Assembly (NCBI RefSeq): GCF_030317205.1
Contig: NZ_JASZYB010000001.1
Location: 2,232,001 to 2,296,000, forward strand
DNA from: Variovorax sp. J2L1-78
GTDB taxonomy: Bacteria > Pseudomonadota > Gammaproteobacteria > Burkholderiales > Burkholderiaceae_C
DNA length: 64,000 nt
Reading direction: 5' to 3'
Below the pieces are notes generated by a model. It was not told the origin of the DNA and made no database searches. It saw nothing but the letters and a program-made list of their open reading frames with translations. The number at the start of each line of letters is the position of its first letter. Within the stretch, counting starts at the first letter, position 1. The position numbers and the translations under genes are program-made. Below, piece by piece: positions 3,649 to 17,723 of the stretch.

Positions 3649-4616
3649 CGCCGCCCCCAGGTCCACGGTTTGAGCAGCCGGTCGCGGCCGACCAGCACCA
3701 GCAGCACCAGGATCAGGCCGATCCAGAACATCCAGTACTGCGGCGTGACGGACGACAGCGCGTCCTGCAGCAGCTTGAAGACGACCGCGCCCGCGATGCC
3801 GCCGTAGAGCCAGCCCACGCCGCCGATCACGAGCATCAGCAGCACGTCGGCCGAGCGGTCGAAGGCCAGCACGTCGAGCGACGCGAAGCCGGTGGTCTGC
3901 GCCAGCAATGCGCCGGCCGCACCGGCGATGGCCGCCGCCACCGTGTAGATCACGGCCATGCGCGAGACGACCGGAATGCCGATCGCCATCGCGCGCAGCC
4001 GGTTGTCGCGGATGGCCTTGAGCGTGGCGCCGAAGGGCGAGCGCACCAGACGCCGCATCAGCAGAAAGAGCAGCAGCACCACCGACAGCGAATACCACGC
4101 GGCCGTGCGGCCGTAGAGGTCGAAGTCGAACTGACCCAGCACCGGCCCCATGACCACCCCCTGCAGCCCGTCGGCGCCGCCGGTCAGCCCGTCGAGCTTG
4201 TTGGCCAGCTCGAGCAGCAGCAGCGCGGTGCCCAGCGTGACCATCAGCCGCGTGAGATCGCTGCCGCGCAGGATCGTCACGCTGGCCAGCGCACCGACGC
4301 CCGCCGACAGCGCCACGGCGACCAGCAGGCCGACCGTCGGGTCGGGCATGACGTGCTTGGCGAACAGCGCCGCGGCATAGGCGCCGAAGCCGAAGAACGC
4401 CGCATGGCCGAGCGAGACGATGCCGGTGTAGCCCAGGATCAGGTCGAGCGACATCGCGAACAGCGCGACGATGGCGATCTCGTTGACCATCAACGCATGC
4501 GACGGCATGGCCAAGGGCAGTGCAAAGGCCAGCGCCCACACGGCGAACTCCCACGGGCGCCAGCGCGCCGGGTCGAGCAGGCGCTTGCGCAGCGCATCGG
4601 TCCGAGCGTCGTCCAT
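3645..4616 (-). CDS. livM: Branched-chain amino acid-type ABC transporter permease LivM
   Basis: 323-residue inner-membrane permease with about ten hydrophobic segments. The LivM hallmark GYTGIVSLGHAAFFGFGAY occurs near residue 65, and AIRDNRLRAMAIGIPV in the cytoplasmic loop contacts the ATPases. Start at 4616 (MDDARTDAL) overlaps the last base of the livH stop (TGATG), so the two are translationally coupled. It pairs with LivH to form the transmembrane channel. Substrate unknown, as for the other genes of the operon. Confidence 0.93.
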
Positions 4617-7038: not shown

Positions 7039-7707
7039 ATGCAACTGTTTACCGGCCCCCTCAGCATGTTCGGCGCCAAGGCCGAGATCGCGGTGCGCGA
7101 GAAAGGTCTGAGCTTCGAGCAGGTGATGGTGCCCTTCGACCGGGACGACCGCTACCAGCCGCGGCACCCCGAGGTGCTGCGCATCAACCCGAAGCAGCAG
7201 GTGCCGGTACTGATCGACGGTGCGGTCGAGCTCTTCGACTCGACCCAGATCTTCGAGTACCTCGAGGACCTGAAACCGCAACCCGCCCTGTGGCCGACCG
7301 GGGGGGCGGCGCGGGCGCAGGCGCGCCAGCTCGAGCACCTGGCCGACGAGGTGTTCTTCCCGAACGTCGTCCGGCTCTTCGGTTTGCAGGACGCCATGCA
7401 GAGCGCCCCGGCCGTCGCCGCGTGTGCGGCCTGCGCCCGGCACTACGAGGCGATGGACGCCTTGCTGGCCGATCGTGAGCACCTCGCCGGCAGCTACTCC
7501 TACGCCGACATCGCCCTGTACATGGCGCACGTGTTCGCGGACCGCAAGGGTGCCGGAATGACCGACGCCACGCCGCGCCTCGTGGCCTGGCGCGAACGCG
7601 TCGGACAGCGCCCGGCGGTGCGGGCGGTGGTCGGGCCGATGATGGCGTTCCTGGCCTCGCAGGGCCGACCGGTGCCGCGCTTCCTCCAATCGCACCGCGC
7701 CCCGTGA
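7039..7707 (+). CDS. Glutathione S-transferase family protein
   Basis: 222-residue soluble protein with a thioredoxin-fold N-terminal half (MQLFTGPLSMFGAKAEIAVR, then KQQVPVLIDG with the cis-proline, then ELFDSTQIFEYLED with the glutathione gamma-glutamyl contact DS/T). A helical C-terminal half carries the SYSYADIALYM motif. Such enzymes conjugate or isomerise electrophiles with glutathione, substrate unknown. An ATG at 7039 follows GGAGGAGACCCC, a good ribosome-binding site. Its stop overlaps the GTG start of the next gene by four bases (GTGA), so the two are co-translated. Confidence 0.92.
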   Translation: MQLFTGPLSMFGAKAEIAVREKGLSFEQVMVPFDRDDRYQPRHPEVLRINPKQQVPVLIDGAVELFDSTQIFEYLEDLKPQPALWPTGGAARAQARQLEHLADEVFFPNVVRLFGLQDAMQSAPAVAACAACARHYEAMDALLADREHLAGSYSYADIALYMAHVFADRKGAGMTDATPRLVAWRERVGQRPAVRAVVGPMMAFLASQGRPVPRFLQSHRAP

Positions 7708-10484: not shown

Positions 10485-12008
10485 ATGCTGCTGCCGCACC
10501 CGCTCCAGCGCGCCTGGCGGTCGGCGCTGCTCCCCTTGCTCTTCCTGGCGATGCTCGTGGGCACAGGCGCTGCACGCGCGCAGGACGAGCCACTGCGCAT
10601 CGGGTCGAAGCGCTTCACCGAGTCGTACATCCTGGCCGAGGTGCTGGCGAAGACAGCCGCACCCCATACAAGCGTCGCACCCGTGGTCCGCCAAGGCCTG
10701 GGCAACACGGCCATCGTGTACGAGGCGTTGCGCTCCGGCGCCATCGACGTGTACGCGGAATACACCGGCACCATCGCGCTCGAGATCCTGCAGGGCAGCG
10801 CCACGATGACGCCCGCCGAGATGAATGCGCGGCTCGCGCCGCTGGGCCTCGGCGTGGCCGTGCCGCTCGGCTTCAACGACGGCTATGCGCTCGCGATGCG
10901 CAACGCCGACGCCGACCGCCTGAAGCTCGCCACGCTCAGCGACCTAGCCCGGCACCCCGAACTGACGCTGGGACTGTCGAACGAATTCCTCGGCCGTGCC
11001 GACGGCTGGCAGGGCCTGGCCGCGCGCTACGGCTTCACGCAGAAGCCCACCGGCCTCGACCACGGCCTGGCCTACGACGCCATCGCGGCCCAGCAGGTCG
11101 ACGTGATCGACATCTACACGACCGACGCGAAGATCGACCACCTCGGCCTGCGCGTGCTGCAGGACGACCGCGGCTACTTCCCGCGCTACGACGCGGTGCT
11201 GCTGTACCGCCTGGACCTGCCGACAAAGCAGCCGGCCGCCTGGGCCGCGCTGCAGACGCTCGAAGGCCGCATCGACGAGCGCGCCATGATCGCGATGAAC
11301 GCGCGTGCCGAACTGCAAGGCACGGCCTTCGACACCATCGCCCGCGACTTCCTCGCCGGCGGCAAAGCCTCGGCGGGCCAACGCGGCTTCCTGGCGAAGC
11401 TGCTCGGCAGCGACCTGGGGCGGCTCACGCGCCAGCACCTGCTGCTGGTGGCGGTGTCGGTCGGCCTGGCGATTCTGGTCGGCGTGCCGCTGGCCGTGTG
11501 GGTGTCCTCGCATGCACGCACCCGCGCCGTGGTGCTGGGCATCGCCGGCCTGATGCAGACCGTGCCCTCGCTCGCCTTGCTGGCGGTGCTGATCTCGCTG
11601 ATCGGCCGCATCGGCACGCTGCCCGCACTCATCGCGCTCACGCTCTACGCGCTGCTGCCCATCATGCGCAACACCGTCACCGGCCTGGCCGAGGTGCCGC
11701 AGGGGCTGCGGCAGGCCGGCACGGCGCTCGGCATGACATCGGCGCAACGCATGCGACTGGTGCAACTGCCGCTCGCCATGCCGACGCTGCTGGCGGGCGT
11801 GCGGACCGCCACGACGATCGCGATCGGCACCGCGACCATCGCCGCCTTCGTCGGCGCGGGCGGCTTCGGTGAACGCATCGTCACCGGGCTGGCGCTGAAC
11901 GACCGGCAACTGCTGCTGGCCGGTGCGCTGCCGGCGGCGGCACTGGCCTTGCTGAGTGAACTGGTGTTCGAGGCGGTGGACCGCCTGTGGCTGCGACGGC
12001 CGCGTTAG
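10485..12008 (+). CDS. OpuB/osmoprotectant-type ABC fusion: binding protein plus permease
   Basis: 507-residue fusion. A signal sequence (residues 1-30, ending GAARAQ) leads into a periplasmic OpuAC/OsmX-type domain (IGSKRFTESYILAEVLAK, DVYAEYTGTIALEIL, QQVDVIDIYTTDAKI). From about residue 310 follow five or so membrane helices of a BPD permease, with the loop EVPQGLRQAGTALGM that contacts the ATPase. Related systems import choline, betaine, carnitine or ergothioneine. The domain order here is binding protein first, the reverse of the permease-first EgtU-type fusions. No cognate ATPase gene is near. It is divergent from the ROK-like gene, and its last four bases overlap the convergent gene at 12005. 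Confidence 0.88.
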   Translation: MLLPHPLQRAWRSALLPLLFLAMLVGTGAARAQDEPLRIGSKRFTESYILAEVLAKTAAPHTSVAPVVRQGLGNTAIVYEALRSGAIDVYAEYTGTIALEILQGSATMTPAEMNARLAPLGLGVAVPLGFNDGYALAMRNADADRLKLATLSDLARHPELTLGLSNEFLGRADGWQGLAARYGFTQKPTGLDHGLAYDAIAAQQVDVIDIYTTDAKIDHLGLRVLQDDRGYFPRYDAVLLYRLDLPTKQPAAWAALQTLEGRIDERAMIAMNARAELQGTAFDTIARDFLAGGKASAGQRGFLAKLLGSDLGRLTRQHLLLVAVSVGLAILVGVPLAVWVSSHARTRAVVLGIAGLMQTVPSLALLAVLISLIGRIGTLPALIALTLYALLPIMRNTVTGLAEVPQGLRQAGTALGMTSAQRMRLVQLPLAMPTLLAGVRTATTIAIGTATIAAFVGAGGFGERIVTGLALNDRQLLLAGALPAAALALLSELVFEAVDRLWLRRPR

Positions 12009-12337
12009 CGCGGCGGCGTCTCCGACTTCGAACTGCGGATGCCGGCGATCTGGCCGCGCACGACCTTCCAGAAGTTCTTGCTGTCGTCGAGCAGGCGCCA
12101 GGCGTTGGAACGGTGCGCCAACACGCCGACTTCGGGCAGGGCTTCGCGGAGGTTCTTGAGGCCCAGGAGCTTGGTGTATTTGCGCACCGTGGCCGGGCTG
12201 TGGATGAGCAGCAGCACGCGCCAGCCGTAGTGGCGCCCGATGATCAGCATCCCGATCGCGCTCTCGAGATCGTTCAACTCACCCTGGAATCCGTCGACCG
12301 CCCGGTCGACCAAAGACATGATCTGCTCGTCGGTCAT
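12005..12337 (-). CDS. Hypothetical protein, 110 aa
   Basis: Not recognised. A small soluble protein, helical in appearance (MTDEQIMSLVDRAVDGFQGE, then a hydrophobic core YGWRVLLLIHS and LGLKNLREALPEVG). No signal peptide or membrane helix. I start it at 12337; an in-frame ATG at 12370 would add MCAPKRGYFVA and cannot be excluded, though neither start has a strong ribosome-binding site. It is convergent with the ABC fusion gene, and the stop codons overlap on opposite strands (TTAG). It could be transcribed with the cytochrome b561 pair upstream. Confidence 0.65.
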   Translation of the reverse strand: MTDEQIMSLVDRAVDGFQGELNDLESAIGMLIIGRHYGWRVLLLIHSPATVRKYTKLLGLKNLREALPEVGVLAHRSNAWRLLDDSKNFWKVVRGQIAGIRSSKSETPPR

Positions 12338-12371
12338 CGCCACGAAATACCCCCGCTTCGGCGCACACATC

Positions 12372-12911
12372 TTAGCGTTCGGTCGAACGCTTCCTTCCGC
12401 TCCACATGGCGGCGACGAGATTTTCGCGGTGGCGCCAGCTCATGAAGGCCACGCCGAACAGGTGAATAGCCACCAGGCCCACGAGGGTCCAGGCCGAGAT
12501 GCGGTGCGTGAGTTCGAGCCATCCGAGGCCCCAGAAACGGTCGGTCGTGTACAGGATGCCGGAGACGCAGACGATGCCCACGCAGAGCAGCAACAGCACG
12601 ATCATCCAGCCGCCGAGCGGGTTGTGGCCCAGCACGCGCGGTGCGTTCCCGCGCAGGAGCCTGCCGGCGTAGCCGAACACGACGCGCGGGCCGCACACGA
12701 AGCTGGCGAAGCGCGCGTGGCGGCTGCCCGCCAGGCCCCAGACGCCGCGCGCGAGCATCACGCCCAGGGCGGTGTAGCCGGCCCACAGATGCAGCGCCAG
12801 GCGCGACTCGCCCGCCCACCAGGCCAGCGCTACCGAGGCCGCGAGGCCCCAGTGCATCAGGCGCTGCGCGAGGTCCCAGACGCGGACCGTGCCGGGCGGG
12901 GGCAGGCTCAC
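12372..12911 (-). CDS. Cytochrome b561-type membrane protein
   Basis: 179-residue inner-membrane diheme cytochrome b of the bacterial Ni-hydrogenase/cytochrome b561 type. Four membrane segments carry candidate heme histidines in LMHWGLAAS, LALHLWAGY, LTHRISAW and AIHLFGVAF. The GTG start at 12911 (VSLPPPGTVRVWD) overlaps the stop of the upstream PepSY gene by four bases (GTGA), the reason for rejecting the longer frame. Such proteins pass electrons between quinol and periplasmic partners. Coupling to a secreted PepSY protein is a common arrangement; the acceptor is unknown. Confidence 0.85.
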   Translation of the reverse strand: MSLPPPGTVRVWDLAQRLMHWGLAASVALAWWAGESRLALHLWAGYTALGVMLARGVWGLAGSRHARFASFVCGPRVVFGYAGRLLRGNAPRVLGHNPLGGWMIVLLLLCVGIVCVSGILYTTDRFWGLGWLELTHRISAWTLVGLVAIHLFGVAFMSWRHRENLVAAMWSGRKRSTER

Positions 12912-13216
12912 TCGGGCTGCTTGATCTCGCCGACCTTGGCGAAGGTCTTCGGGTCGAAAAAGGCCTCGACGCGGCGGCCGCTGGTGTCGAAGCCGTACAC
13001 CTCGTAGCAGCCGTTGAAGTTCTTGACCTGGCGGACCTTCCAGCCCTCCGAGACCAGCTTCTTCTGCAGCTCCATCTGCGGCTTCATTTCTTCCTTGGCC
13101 ACGGCTTCGCATTTGACGGCGTTGTGGTCAACGTACTGCGCGGCCGCAACGCCGGCGAACGACAGCGGAACGATGGCGCCGACGACGATGCGCAGGAGCC
13201 GGGAGACAACGGTCAT
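12908..13216 (-). CDS. Secreted PepSY-like protein
   Basis: 102 residues with a signal peptide (MTVVSRLLRIVVGAIVPLSF, cleaved near GVAAAQ) and a PepSY-like fold in the mature part: VSEGWKVRQVKNFNGCYEVY followed by FDTSGRRVEAFFDPKT. Two cysteines remain in the mature protein. Start at 13216 follows GAGG by seven bases. Co-translated with the cytochrome b561 gene, so it probably acts beside it in the periplasm. No enzymatic function can be stated. Confidence 0.8.
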   Translation of the reverse strand: MTVVSRLLRIVVGAIVPLSFAGVAAAQYVDHNAVKCEAVAKEEMKPQMELQKKLVSEGWKVRQVKNFNGCYEVYGFDTSGRRVEAFFDPKTFAKVGEIKQPE

Positions 13217-13251
13217 GGATGAACCTCGATGCAGGGAAGGCCGCGCAGCGC

Positions 13252-13938
13252 TCAGACGTCGAGCCACATGCGCAGCAGGTTGTGGTACGTGCTGGTGAGG
13301 CCGATCACGCCCGGATCGGTCTCGCCATAGGAACTGCGCAGGTGACGCAGATGGTTGTCCATGTCGAACAACAGGCGGCGCTGTTCGTCGCTGCGGACCA
13401 TGCTCTGGATCCAGAAGTAACTCGCGACGCGAAAGCCCCGCGTGACCGGTGTCACCCGGTGCACGCTGGTGCCGGGGTACATCACCATGTCACCCGCGGC
13501 CAGCTTCACGCGTTGCTCGCCGTAGGTGTCTTCAATGACCAGTTCGCCGCCGTCGTAGTCGGCCGGGTCGCTCAGGAAGAGCGTGCACGAGATGTCCGTA
13601 CGGACCCGGCCCGAACCGTCGCGCAGGAAGCGCACGGAACTGTCGACGTGGTTGCCGAACGCATTGGACGCGCCGCCATAGCGGTTGAAGAGCGGTGGCG
13701 AAATCTGCTTGGGCAGTGCTGCCGAGAAGAACACCTGGTGCCGCTCCAGCCCCCGCAGCAACAGGCGCTGCACCGCACGGGTTTCGTCGCAATCCTCCTG
13801 CAACTGCTCGTTGTTCTTGGCCAGCGCGGACTGGCTGCCCGCGGTGATCCGGCCGTCACCCCAGGGGGCGTCGGCCAGGATCGCCCGGGCCTCTCGCAGC
13901 TCCTCGGGTGTGAGCACCTGTTTGACGTGCAGCAGCAT
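13252..13938 (-). CDS. Fe(II)/2-oxoglutarate PKHD-type hydroxylase, PiuC/YbiX family
   Basis: 228-residue cytoplasmic oxygenase. The iron-binding triad is visible as His97-x-Asp99 ([11 protein letters not shown]) and His160 ([13 protein letters not shown]), with Arg170 as the likely 2-oxoglutarate contact. The C-terminal extension is typical of the family. The gene sits 18 bp downstream of a TonB-dependent siderophore receptor on the same strand, the classic piuA-piuC arrangement seen with iron-starvation genes, and the two are likely one transcript. The substrate of PiuC is not established in general; a role in siderophore or receptor-linked iron use is inferred from context. Confidence 0.9.
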
Positions 13939-13956: not shown

Positions 13957-16263
13957 TCAGAAGCGAACGCCGACCGTGGCGAGCACCTGGCGTTTGGCAC
14001 CGAGGATGGTGAAGCCCGGGTACAGCTGATCGCCGTAGGCCTTGTTGCTCAGGTTGTTGACGTTGATCTGCGCATACACATCCGGGGTGAACTTGTACTC
14101 GAACATCGCATCGGCCACCATGTAGCCCGGCACGCGGGCGGTTGCAGAGGCGGCGCCGGTGTTACCCGTCAGCGGGCGGTTTTCGGTGGCGCCATGCGCG
14201 CCCAGCGCCACGCGCATCTTCGAGGTTGCCTGGTAGCTGATCCAGACGGCACCCGACTGCTTGGGCGTGAGACCGACGCGCTGCCCCACCGAGGCCTGTG
14301 CGGCAGCAGCGCTGCCGGCCTGGTCGATCTTCGCGACCGGCACCCAGGTGTAGGAGAAATAGACCTCCCATTGCGGCCCCAGGCGGCCGACCACGTCGAG
14401 CTCGAGGCCGGCGGTGTGCCGCTTGCCCGACAGCGTGTAGGCCGAGCCGGCGAAGTCGGAATCGGTGGTGCGCTCGTTGTACTTCTCGGTGCGGAAGATC
14501 GCGCCGCGTGTCGACAGCGCGCCGCCCAGCCAGTCGAGCTTGGCGCCCAGTTCGAGGTTGCGGCTCTTCTCCGGCGGCGTGTTGGCGTTCTGCGGCGTGA
14601 CGTATTGGTAGGTGTCGGCCGAGGTGTTGAACGAGGTGCCGTACGACAGGTGATAGGACTGCGTGTCGGTCGGCTGGAACAGCACGCCGCCGCGATAGCT
14701 CCACGGTGAATTCGACAGGTGCGTGCTGGTGGTGCTGATCAGCCGGCCGTTGGCGCCCGTGGCATAGCCCAACTGCTCGAAGTCGCCAGAGAAGTGGTCG
14801 TAGCGCACGCCGCCGAGCAGCTTCCATTGCGGTGCCACCTGGACCAAGTCCTGCAGGTACACGCCATAGGCCTTGGCGTCGTAGTTGCTCGAATGGCGCC
14901 ATTGCGGTGACAGGCCGGTGCCGGTCAGGCCGGCGCCGTCGTCGGGCGTGCCGACCTGCGTGAACGGACGCGTGCCGAGCGTGCTGCCGTTGTTCTGGAA
15001 GCGATTCGCCTCTTCCTTCGAGGCGTCGATGCCGGTCAGCAGCTCGTGCTTCATGCCGAGGGCGTTGAAGGCCTGGCTGTAGTCGCTTTGCGCATAGGTC
15101 GCCTTGTAGCGGTCCTTGCGCGGTGTCAGGCCGCTGCGCGTGAGGAAGGTCGCCGGGTCAAGCGAGGTGACGGCAGGCGTGTTGGGCGGGCAGGCACCCG
15201 CCGCGGTCGGACGCGCGCCGCAGGCACCGACCGCCGTGCTCCATTGCGCCCGGTCGAACACGCCGCTGCGCACCTGCGTACGCAACTCGCCACCATTGGC
15301 GAAGGCGTGCTTCCACGCCCCGTGCACATAGTTGGCCTCGCCGTCGACGAAGTCTGCCGAGGTGCCGTAATACTTGCCCGGCTTGACCGGCGCCAGGCTG
15401 CCGTTGACGTAACGAACGGCCGACATCGGCACATTGTTGTTCTTCAGATGGAACAAACCGACGGTGAACTCGTCCGCCGTACCCAGTCCCCAGCTGTAGC
15501 TCGGCGCGATGCCGTTCTTGTCGATGTTCGCGCCGCCGTTGTCCGCCTTGTTGTACATCGCGTTGATGCGCAGCGCCGAGGTTTCGCCGGTACGGATGTT
15601 GAAGTCGGCGGTGGTGCGGTAGTAGCCGCCGGTGCCCACGGTGCCGACGACGTCGGTCTGGTCGGCCAGCAGCGGCTTCTTGCTCACCTGGTTCACCACG
15701 CCGCCGGTCGAGCCGCGGCCGAACAGCATCGAGGCGGAACCACGCATCACCTCGATGCGGTCGAGATTGAAGGTGTCACGGTCGTACTGGGACGGGTCGC
15801 GCATGCCATCGATCATCAGGTCGCCGGTGCTGGCGATCGGGAAGCCGCGCAGCCGGATGTCCTGGTCGGTGCCGTTCTCGGTGGCGGCGAAGGTGATGCC
15901 GGCCGTGTAGTGCAGTGCGTCGCGCAGTGTGTCGAGCTTCACGTCGTCGATCAGCTTCTCGGTCACCACGGTGATCGACTGGGGCACGTCGCGAATGTCC
16001 TGCACGCCTTTGCCGATGCTGGTCTTCTTGGTCTGAATCTGGTCCTTGCCCTGCGTTTCGGCTTCCCCGGTCACGGTCACCGTGCCGAGTGTCCCACCCG
16101 TCGCAGGCGGCGTCTGCGCCCAACTGCTGACGGAGGCCGCCAGCATGAGCGCGCCAAGCGGAAATGCGGTGGCTGCGTCGACCGATCGTGCAGCGAGGGA
16201 GCGGAAAGCGGGAGCGGCGGGCGCAGGCGCGCGGCGGGATTTTCGAGCCAAGGGGGCCTCCAT
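13957..16263 (-). CDS. TonB-dependent catecholate-siderophore receptor (Fiu/PiuA-like)
   Basis: 768-residue outer-membrane receptor. A long basic N-terminus leads into a signal sequence (residues about 25-50, ending SSWAQ). A plug domain with QSITVVTEKLIDD and MLFGRGSTGGVVNQVSKKP follows, then a 22-strand barrel ending in the terminal aromatic motif VGVRF. The plug and barrel pattern matches Fiu/PiuA-type receptors for iron-catecholates. Start at 16263 (MEAPLARKS) was chosen because the longer frame adds a non-signal-like, cysteine-rich leader overlapping the promoter. Divergent from a small Fur-like regulator at 16517. Confidence 0.92.
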   Translation of the reverse strand: MEAPLARKSRRAPAPAAPAFRSLAARSVDAATAFPLGALMLAASVSSWAQTPPATGGTLGTVTVTGEAETQGKDQIQTKKTSIGKGVQDIRDVPQSITVVTEKLIDDVKLDTLRDALHYTAGITFAATENGTDQDIRLRGFPIASTGDLMIDGMRDPSQYDRDTFNLDRIEVMRGSASMLFGRGSTGGVVNQVSKKPLLADQTDVVGTVGTGGYYRTTADFNIRTGETSALRINAMYNKADNGGANIDKNGIAPSYSWGLGTADEFTVGLFHLKNNNVPMSAVRYVNGSLAPVKPGKYYGTSADFVDGEANYVHGAWKHAFANGGELRTQVRSGVFDRAQWSTAVGACGARPTAAGACPPNTPAVTSLDPATFLTRSGLTPRKDRYKATYAQSDYSQAFNALGMKHELLTGIDASKEEANRFQNNGSTLGTRPFTQVGTPDDGAGLTGTGLSPQWRHSSNYDAKAYGVYLQDLVQVAPQWKLLGGVRYDHFSGDFEQLGYATGANGRLISTTSTHLSNSPWSYRGGVLFQPTDTQSYHLSYGTSFNTSADTYQYVTPQNANTPPEKSRNLELGAKLDWLGGALSTRGAIFRTEKYNERTTDSDFAGSAYTLSGKRHTAGLELDVVGRLGPQWEVYFSYTWVPVAKIDQAGSAAAAQASVGQRVGLTPKQSGAVWISYQATSKMRVALGAHGATENRPLTGNTGAASATARVPGYMVADAMFEYKFTPDVYAQINVNNLSNKAYGDQLYPGFTILGAKRQVLATVGVRF

Positions 16264-16369
16264 GAAAACGCGAACGCCAAAAGCGTCGCGGTGGGTGGAA
16301 GGCTGGCTACGCGCTGGAGCGCAAATGGCTTGCCGGGAATGCGGAACGCAGTATAGGGTTTGGCGACAA

Positions 16370-16428
16370 AAGTAGCACTTGATAACCCACTCTTCTTTGC
16401 TACTTGTATTGGACATACAACTGTCCAA
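16370..16428. promoter_or_regulatory. Inverted repeats in the divergent promoter of receptor and Fur-like gene
   Basis: Two separate perfect inverted repeats lie in this 253-bp AT-richer gap: AAGTAGCA (16370-16377) with TGCTACTT (16398-16405), and TTGGACA (16409-16415) with TGTCCAA (16422-16428) around a 6-bp centre. A weaker CTAC/GTAG pair follows near 16440. None is a canonical Fur box. They are candidate operators for the adjacent Fur-like protein and would lie over the receptor promoter. Confidence 0.5.
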
Positions 16429-16516
16429 CCAAGATTTCCCTACTTTGCAGTAGTACGCTGTCGTCCTACTCTATGCATTTTTTCATCCGCCCTGCACTTT
16501 GGATGCCCGCCGCCTC

Positions 16517-16852
16517 ATGTCCCCACGCAGCCATTCCCCAACCACCGGACGGCTCGGCGCGCAACACGACGCCGTGCTGTCGACGCTGCGCGCCATGCCC
16601 ACCCCCGAGCCCGACGCGCACACGATCTACCGGGCCCTCCTCACCCAAGGCCAGGACATGCCCTTGTCGACGCTCTATCGCGCGCTCAAGGCACTCGAGA
16701 GCGCCGGCCTGGTGCGACGTCAATGGGCGCCGCACCACGGACGTCCACGCGGTGTCTACAGCGCGACCGGGGACAGTTCAGCCGCCGCGCAAGCCGGTGC
16801 CGTGTGCGCGCACTGCGGGGCGCATCTCGCGACGACCGGCACCTCGTCGTAG
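16517..16852 (+). CDS. Small Fur-family-like transcriptional regulator
   Basis: 111 residues that fit the DNA-binding half of a Fur-family protein: DAVLSTLRAMPTPEPDAHTIYRALL, then the recognition region MPLSTLYRALKALESAGLVR, then GRPRGVY and a single CxxC pair (Cys97, Cys100, CAHCG). It is shorter than Fur (about 140-150) and lacks the histidine-rich metal-sensing and dimer strands after the CxxC. It lies between a siderophore receptor and an FTR1 iron permease and so probably controls iron uptake. ATG at 16517 is preferred over TTG at 16499; neither has a good ribosome-binding site. It could also be a degenerate Fur copy. Confidence 0.75.
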   Translation: MSPRSHSPTTGRLGAQHDAVLSTLRAMPTPEPDAHTIYRALLTQGQDMPLSTLYRALKALESAGLVRRQWAPHHGRPRGVYSATGDSSAAAQAGAVCAHCGAHLATTGTSS

Positions 16853-16964
16853 TCGCGGCCGCCCCGACACGCTGCGCCGGCTCAACGCCGGACCCGCATG
16901 ACGGCCGCATTCCGGCACGGGCAGAATCGGGCCGTCCTTCTTTTCCGTCGCCGCGCTCTGCCCC

Positions 16965-17723
16965 ATGTTCCAGGCCTTCGTGATCGTCAGCCGTGAGGCG
17001 ATCGAACTGCTGCTGATCCTCATTGCCCTGCGGGAATGGGCACGCCAGGCACAACGACCCGGGCTGGGGCCCTGGATCGCCATCGGCGTGATCGCAGGCT
17101 TCGCTGCTGCGGCCGCCATCGTGGCCACGCTGCCGGAGACCGGCATGAACGAATGGCTGGACATCGCCCTGACCTGCGGCTTCGGCCTGTCGGTCGCGCT
17201 GCTGTCCTGCGGCACGATGGCGTCGATGGCGGGCATCGGGGCCCATGCGAGTTCGGTCTTCGACAACTGGTTCGCACGGCGCGCCACGGCCATCCCGGTG
17301 CTGGGTTTCGTCGCGTTCAGCGCGCTGCGCGAAGCGCTGGAGGCCTTCCTGCTCATCCGTTTCGTGGCAGCGGCGAACACGGTGCACGACGTGGCCTGGG
17401 GCGTCGCGCTGGGCCTGGCCGCCTGCGCATTGCTGGCGGCCGCCTGGCAAGCGCTGGCGACCAGCCGGCGCACGCACATCGTGTTCCGTCTGACCGCCGT
17501 GCTCCTGTTCATCATCGGCATCCAGATGATGCTGGAGGCCGTCGTCGAGGTGCTGCTGCGCGGCGTCGCCGGCCCGCACCTCACGCAGGTGGGCCGCGCC
17601 ATGCAGCCGTACCTGGAAAACGGCGACCGCTACTGGTTGCTGTGCGCCGGCCTGGCCGTGATCCCGCTGGTGCTGTGGATGCGCGCCTGGTGGCGGCGCG
17701 CCGGGACGGTGCAGCGGCGCTGA
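16965..17723 (+). CDS. FTR1-family iron permease
   Basis: 252-residue inner-membrane protein with about seven helices. Both REXXE iron-binding motifs of the FTR1/EfeU family are present: Arg10-Glu14 (REAIE) and Arg122-Glu126 (REALE). It imports iron, usually with an oxidase or a periplasmic partner; no EfeO/EfeB-like gene is nearby, so it resembles the stand-alone or FtrC-type permeases. The ATG at 16965 follows the Fur-like gene by about 110 bp. Probable product of the same iron-regulated locus as the receptor at 13957-16263. Confidence 0.9.
   Translation: MFQAFVIVSREAIELLLILIALREWARQAQRPGLGPWIAIGVIAGFAAAAAIVATLPETGMNEWLDIALTCGFGLSVALLSCGTMASMAGIGAHASSVFDNWFARRATAIPVLGFVAFSALREALEAFLLIRFVAAANTVHDVAWGVALGLAACALLAAAWQALATSRRTHIVFRLTAVLLFIIGIQMMLEAVVEVLLRGVAGPHLTQVGRAMQPYLENGDRYWLLCAGLAVIPLVLWMRAWWRRAGTVQRR

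Follow-up and report, generated by a model that had tools for sequence, protein, structure and literature searches.

A conserved Fur-like protein without the metal-sensing half, encoded beside a siderophore receptor and a rare palindrome in Variovorax, suggests a local iron-uptake switch

The window analysed here, a stretch of 64,000 nucleotides from Variovorax sp. J2L1-78, carries a short Fur-like gene, hereafter mini-Fur, within a cluster of iron-related genes (Table 1). An earlier note on this DNA had placed the gene between a siderophore receptor and an FTR1 permease; domain matches confirmed both neighbours, the receptor being on the minus and the permease on the plus strand. The same note gave the gap between receptor and mini-Fur as 253 bp, which holds for a receptor start at ATG 16263; because GGAGG together with TTG 16251 recurs in relatives, TTG 16251 is probably the start, and the gap then measures 265 bp. 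In several relatives the position of ATG 16263 reads CTG or TTG, and GGAGG precedes TTG 16251. As for the other genes of the cluster, the 120-aa protein has no Pfam or NCBIfam match and its gene adjoins FTR1 in other genera, and a second piuC paralogue, 52% identical, is found in the same genome outside the window (G000:C1:2169913-2170587).

Table 1. Genes and sequence elements around the mini-Fur gene (positions in the window)
Feature	Position	Strand	Remarks
Uncharacterised 120-aa protein	12005..12370	-	travels with the cluster
Cytochrome b561-type membrane protein	12372..13112	-	start uncertain; overlaps the PepSY frame
PepSY_2-domain protein	12908..13267	-	start uncertain
PiuC/YbiX-type Fe2+-dependent dioxygenase	13252..13938	-	
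TonB-dependent siderophore receptor	13957..16251	-	preferred TTG start; best NCBIfam match TIGR01783, over cut-off; Fiu-like by score
Receptor -10 hexamer TATACT (AGTATA on + strand)	16350..16355	-	putative assignment
First inverted repeat, AAGTAGCA / TGCTACTT	16370-16377 / 16398-16405		perfect; not conserved as a repeat
Conserved GTAGCA half-site	16372..16377		16 nt from receptor -10; proposed second, weaker site
Second inverted repeat, TTGGACA / TGTCCAA	16409-16415 / 16422-16428		perfect; not conserved
Conserved palindrome GTAGTACGCTGTCGTCCTAC (GTAGNAC-N6-GTNCTAC)	16450..16469		47 nt before mini-Fur ATG; proposed operator
Mini-Fur gene	16517..16852	+	111 aa; FUR-type winged helix, residues 12-70; one CxxC (C97-C100); no C-terminal domain
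FTR1-family iron permease	16965..17723	+	

In Fur, a textbook regulator, metal in the C-terminal half switches the binding of DNA; the motif HHDH marks its regulatory metal site and two CxxC motifs its structural zinc site. The open reading frame and a partial match to the Pfam FUR family (PF01475) bear out the earlier description of mini-Fur as a 111-residue protein with a Fur-like winged helix, one CxxC and nothing further of the sensing domain: it scores 32.1 bits against a cut-off of 23.1, and the match is limited to profile positions 5-63 of 121, which is the winged helix. The cut-off was also passed by four of six other mini proteins tested. Two FUR-domain genes exceed it in the Variovorax genome itself, mini-Fur and one Fur, the latter a 156-aa open frame (139 aa counted from the first Met) in which HHDH is present. 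Mini-Fur shares with Fur the winged-helix DNA-binding domain, including the YR of the recognition helix, and a gene position beside siderophore receptor genes. However, the dimerisation and sensor domain that forms the C-terminal part of Fur is absent in all 12 mini genes aligned (11 from the genus and one from another genus); HHDH is absent in the mini proteins, an HDH just before the CxxC being found only in the L049-L051 group; and at most one CxxC is present. Seven of the 12 genes have it, in alignment with the first of the two in Fur, and five have none (L052, the minus-strand copy of L055, L056, L057 and L058), the two-CxxC site occurring in no mini protein. Homologues of full Fur length, which the earlier note took as the sign of a truncated copy, were not found among these 12 genes, each of which ends before the C-terminal domain of Fur; with all relatives short, a one-off truncation of a full-length gene is ruled out.

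The recognition helix and wing are conserved throughout the 12-gene alignment, and the C-terminal tails are variable, the L056 and L058 proteins stopping soon after the wing; the N-terminal helix of the homologues is missing from the window mini-Fur. Among three close homologues dN/dS was 0.17, 0.22 and 0.18, which indicates that the gene is maintained by selection. When the 12-gene profile was compared with solved chains, Fur was the best match (5.6e-12), whereas PadR-type chains reached 9.2e-5 at best. PadR proteins (PF03551) are likewise small winged-helix regulators, a family with a C-terminal dimerisation helix; their Pfam cut-off of 27 was narrowly passed by the mini protein P0001 (28.3) but by none of six others. 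An AF2 model of mini-Fur (single sequence, mean pLDDT 62, weak) found its best fold matches in Fur and Zur, none reaching E 0.001, and its helix 88-107 has a pLDDT of about 50, the model being too weak to judge dimerisation. Judged from its sequence, mini-Fur is by descent a member of the Fur superfamily and is not Fur proper, the C-terminal domain, HHDH, a second CxxC and a Fur box having each been looked for and not found.

A profile built from three homologues gave 15 matches in 14 of the 101 genomes of the genus, of which 11, in 10 genomes and at E 1.2e-20 or better, were counted as mini-Fur; those in G046, G137, G016 and G010 (E about 1e-8 to 7e-8) were set aside as weaker. Mini-Fur is accordingly counted with 11 close homologues, the window's own gene included, G138 carrying two of them. 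Family-wide, with 10 candidates scored per genome, it was detected in at least 2 of 399 genomes, its own and one of another genus, a figure which is a lower bound. Among named genomes a search of contigs gave one distant locus, and a plasmid search for mini-Fur relatives gave none.

When the promoter regions were aligned, a single strongly conserved block appeared upstream of the mini-Fur gene, the palindrome GTAGTACGCTGTCGTCCTAC. With start codons chosen by hand and two 19-bp variants allowed, it lies within 250 bp upstream of nine of the 12 mini genes without mismatch and of two more with one mismatch, P being at most 0.005 for each of these 11 genes (200 shuffles each); it was not found within 250 bp upstream of the remaining one, L057 of G131. 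Both mini copies that have no adjoining receptor (L056 and the minus strand of L055) are also preceded by it. A conserved peptide was considered in place of a DNA site and rejected: the mini gene's open frame extends over the palindrome both in the window and in L053, but not in the same reading frame, which argues that it is kept as DNA.

This block is not one of the two inverted repeats to which the earlier note had drawn attention. Those repeats are present and perfect, but as meaningful elements they fail, being barely above chance (for the 253-bp gap, 7% of 1000 shuffles contained an 8-bp repeat and 4% equalled the observed number of 7-bp repeats) and not conserved. The 11 other mini genes all show at least 5 mismatches in 14 positions to the second repeat and at least 5 in 16 to the first, apart from L053, which differs from the first at 2 positions; only GTAGCA in the left arm of the first (16372-16377) is conserved. 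Both were rejected as operators for this lack of conservation, which the earlier note had itself named as evidence against its reading. The wider suggestion of a shortened regulator with its own recognition sequence probably holds as a family trait, with a different palindrome in place of the repeats that had been named. In the literature searched (open-licence only), we found neither a Fur protein without its C-terminal half nor this palindrome, which is weak evidence of novelty.

The palindrome is rare and specific to its cluster. The Variovorax genome has one site when up to one mismatch is allowed, whereas a reversed control pattern gives 23; on the strength of this single site a wide regulon was rejected. 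Exact copies occur in 10 of the 101 genus genomes, one in each, seven at mini-Fur promoters and three at receptor promoters, and all 10 lie in clusters of this kind, with mini-Fur or a longer Fur-like gene. The naive chance of 10 exact sites falling among the 13 genomes that carry one of these genes is 1.5e-11, a value that ignores kinship and rests on a set of 13 defined post hoc. Exact sites were found in eight further genomes of the 399 searched family-wide; in four of these (three of genus g59 and one of genus g129) genes for FTR1, the 120-aa protein, a receptor and piuC lie next to the site. The other four look like chance: the sites in G285, G355 and G485 fall inside ORFs, and tblastn found no cluster genes in the 14.5 kb around the sites of G285, G436, G355 and G485. 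Order-wide, four further genomes of 340, of other families, have an exact site, none convincingly in such a cluster (L119-L122, 3 kb each), a weak match in L122 being judged a composition artefact. As background sites are nearly absent, the palindrome can be used in practice to locate such clusters.

On its receptor side the window has only the half-site, not the full palindrome. A receptor -10 was recognised at nine mini loci, of which seven have GTAG[CA] at a distance of 16-17 nt; in L058 the half-site takes the form ATAGCA, 19 nt from the -10, and in L057 it is absent. The sequence of L091, a locus without mini-Fur, tracks the mini loci as far as the half-site and then diverges. A search of 16200-17000 gave no consensus sigma-70 promoter. 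The N6 spacer of the palindrome reads TTGACA, a promoter -35, in seven loci from three genera (L094-L096, L111-L114), and is followed by a -10 which is TACATT 17 nt on (L094-L096, L114) or CATAAT 16 nt on (L111-L113); a protein sitting on the palindrome would cover that -35.

The earlier statement that the gap has no standard Fur box was upheld, the best score being 7.8 of 14 and equalled by all 300 shuffles (P 1.0), and none was seen in L049-L053 either. In this the mini-Fur locus differs from those of Fur: it has a GTAG palindrome and no Fur box, and its site is confined to one cluster. Good Fur boxes are present in L055 and L057 (12 and 13 of 14). Fur-box-like sequences lie beside the palindrome in L094, L095 and L113 (P 0.003 or less), are borderline in L111 (0.07) and L112 (0.05), and are not significant in L114. 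The mini-less L091 has no Fur box too, so control by Fur and by mini-Fur is not simply complementary.

The palindrome and the cluster type are shared by longer Fur-like genes in G007, G016 and G118 (L095, L094 and L096). Unlike mini-Fur, these genes have retained a C-terminal domain, in which two CxxC but no HHDH are present, and their palindrome stands at the receptor promoter rather than at their own gene; two score 20.8 and 20.1 bits against FUR, below the cut-off, and the third gives no match at E 0.001. Each of their sites is upstream of a receptor that is only distantly related to that of the window (29-31% identical); a distant FTR1 (33-36%) is found to one side and the longer Fur-like gene to the other. 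In L095 and L096 a second inverted repeat, with GTAGCC/GGCTAC arms, lies between the receptor and the 120-aa gene and is possibly a terminator or another site, and in L094 a second Fur-like frame (3729-4085) is divergent to the longer Fur-like gene. Cys-free Fur-like genes of g59 (L111-L113) also have the palindrome just upstream and FTR1, the 120-aa protein, receptor and piuC nearby; they differ from mini-Fur in keeping a C-terminal domain without Cys pairs, and they pass the FUR cut-off with 29.7-34.4 bits. A second Fur, of the DNA-binding domain only, follows piuC in two of the three g59 loci (Fur-like frames at 7550 and 14312 in L111 and at 7560 and 11642 in L112), the third locus ending inside piuC.

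Other genes of the cluster come and go with mini-Fur. A close FTR1 (at least 58%) is present in eight of the 101 genus genomes, all eight of which carry mini-Fur, the two being on different contigs in G120. The 120-aa protein was found in 13 of the 101, namely nine of the 10 mini-Fur genomes, three with a longer Fur-like gene and G041 (at 48%). From the 24 mini-less genomes with a piuC of at least 81% identity, 20 loci were fetched, and neither mini-Fur nor FTR1 was found within the 6.7-6.8 kb fetched for each. The mini label requires four changes on the piuC tree, in which few branches are well supported, and the mini-less L078, L091 and L092, without the GTAG half-site, nest among the mini loci. 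G131 has retained its mini gene, and the palindrome, FTR1 and 120-aa protein are gone; it is sister to the mini-less G028 (100/96) and looks like a loss under way.

A conserved mini-Fur beside a siderophore receptor and a rare palindrome suggest, at the level of sequence comparison, a local iron-uptake switch that dropped the metal sensor of Fur. In our main reading, to which we assign a probability of about 0.6, mini-Fur is a local, Fur-derived repressor that acts on its own gene via the palindrome and on the receptor via the half-site. This reading draws directly on the shortness of the protein, its conservation under selection, the cluster-specific palindrome, the co-occurrence of the genes and their shared loss. 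A Fur-family regulator would have shed its C-terminal metal-sensing and dimerisation domain, and its remaining half, we infer, binds GTAGNAC-N6-GTNCTAC. From the strong site at 16450-16469 mini-Fur would repress its own promoter, and through the weaker GTAG site at 16372 it may act at the divergent receptor promoter, where no Fur box is visible. In clusters with longer Fur-like genes, the palindrome is centred on the -35 TTGACA of the promoter of the receptor or of the Fur-like gene, and binding over that -35 would block RNA polymerase. Since the mini proteins have no Fur-type regulatory metal site, the signal is presumably not classical Fe-Fur sensing; control is likeliest to come from an autorepression set-point, from iron input through another factor, or from some ligand or partner.

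Several observations count against repression by mini-Fur through the palindrome. The receptor side of the window offers just a half-site, and 16200-17000 no consensus sigma-70 promoter; the window protein is missing both the N-terminal helix seen in homologues and any known dimerisation part, though a palindrome implies a dimer; the mini gene of G131 (L057) persists without the palindrome; and L114 has the palindrome with receptor, FTR1 and 120-aa gene, yet no Fur-like gene was found in its 15 kb. The last two, and the great diversity of the Fur-like genes that accompany the palindrome, would be expected if it were the site of another regulator of these iron clusters, with mini-Fur as a passenger or only a target. 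We consider this rather unlikely, for the 10 exact sites of the genus occur only in genomes with mini-Fur or a longer Fur-like gene, and the palindrome stays with the mini-Fur copies that have no adjoining receptor. It is less probable still that mini-Fur senses metal or redox state through its CxxC, for example as a dimer linked through Zn or Fe. The seven genes whose CxxC aligns with the first of Fur, and the HDH added before it in the L049-L051 group, would fit such a sensor, but its absence in five of the 12 genes makes a central role for CxxC in the mechanism unlikely; four of those five have the palindrome, and the Fur-like proteins of g59, with their gene behind the palindrome, are also without Cys pairs.

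Perhaps mini-Fur has no operator of its own and modulates Fur, by competing for its sites or by forming mixed dimers. The fold matches the DNA-binding domain of Fur and the genome has one full Fur, but a palindrome unlike the Fur box, the missing boxes in the window gap and in L049-L053 and the loss of the part by which Fur dimerises make this highly improbable. Scarcely credible, finally, is a decaying Fur fragment without function: the variable C-terminal tails and the resemblance of G131 to a stage of loss could be read in this way, against which stand the low dN/dS and the conservation of recognition helix, wing and palindrome.

Beyond repression by mini-Fur itself, a longer history may be proposed tentatively, at odds which we put somewhat below even. 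A Fur-paralogue lineage within one bacterial family would have had its metal sensor dismantled to different degrees (Cys pairs without HHDH, Cys-free, and the DNA-binding domain alone) while retaining a palindromic operator of its own, often with a -35 as spacer. The sensor-less form would then have taken the siderophore receptor from direct Fur control, leaving command of the cluster to a self-limiting DNA-binding domain or to a partner, for example the 120-aa protein. A conserved and selected Fur subfamily reduced to its DNA-binding half, with its own palindrome limited to a single iron cluster, would show how a metalloregulator can become a local, metal-blind switch, and mini-Fur would offer a compact natural system for Fur-fold DNA specificity apart from sensing.

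An Rfam search of 16000-17000 found no RNA family, even with E allowed up to 1. The 5' leader of the receptor (16264-16345, minus strand) contains the blocks GGAAGGCTGGCT and TGGCTYGCC (plus-strand reading), conserved in loci with or without mini-Fur, and the stretch between them varies and is hairpin-like in some loci; the leader may act as an RNA element that controls the receptor. Upstream of the receptor in most mini-less loci (L073-L077, L079-L090) a different gene starts divergently, reading MIVCVCRRVSDREIARHVRAG in L088 and others, which we take to be bacterioferritin-associated ferredoxin.
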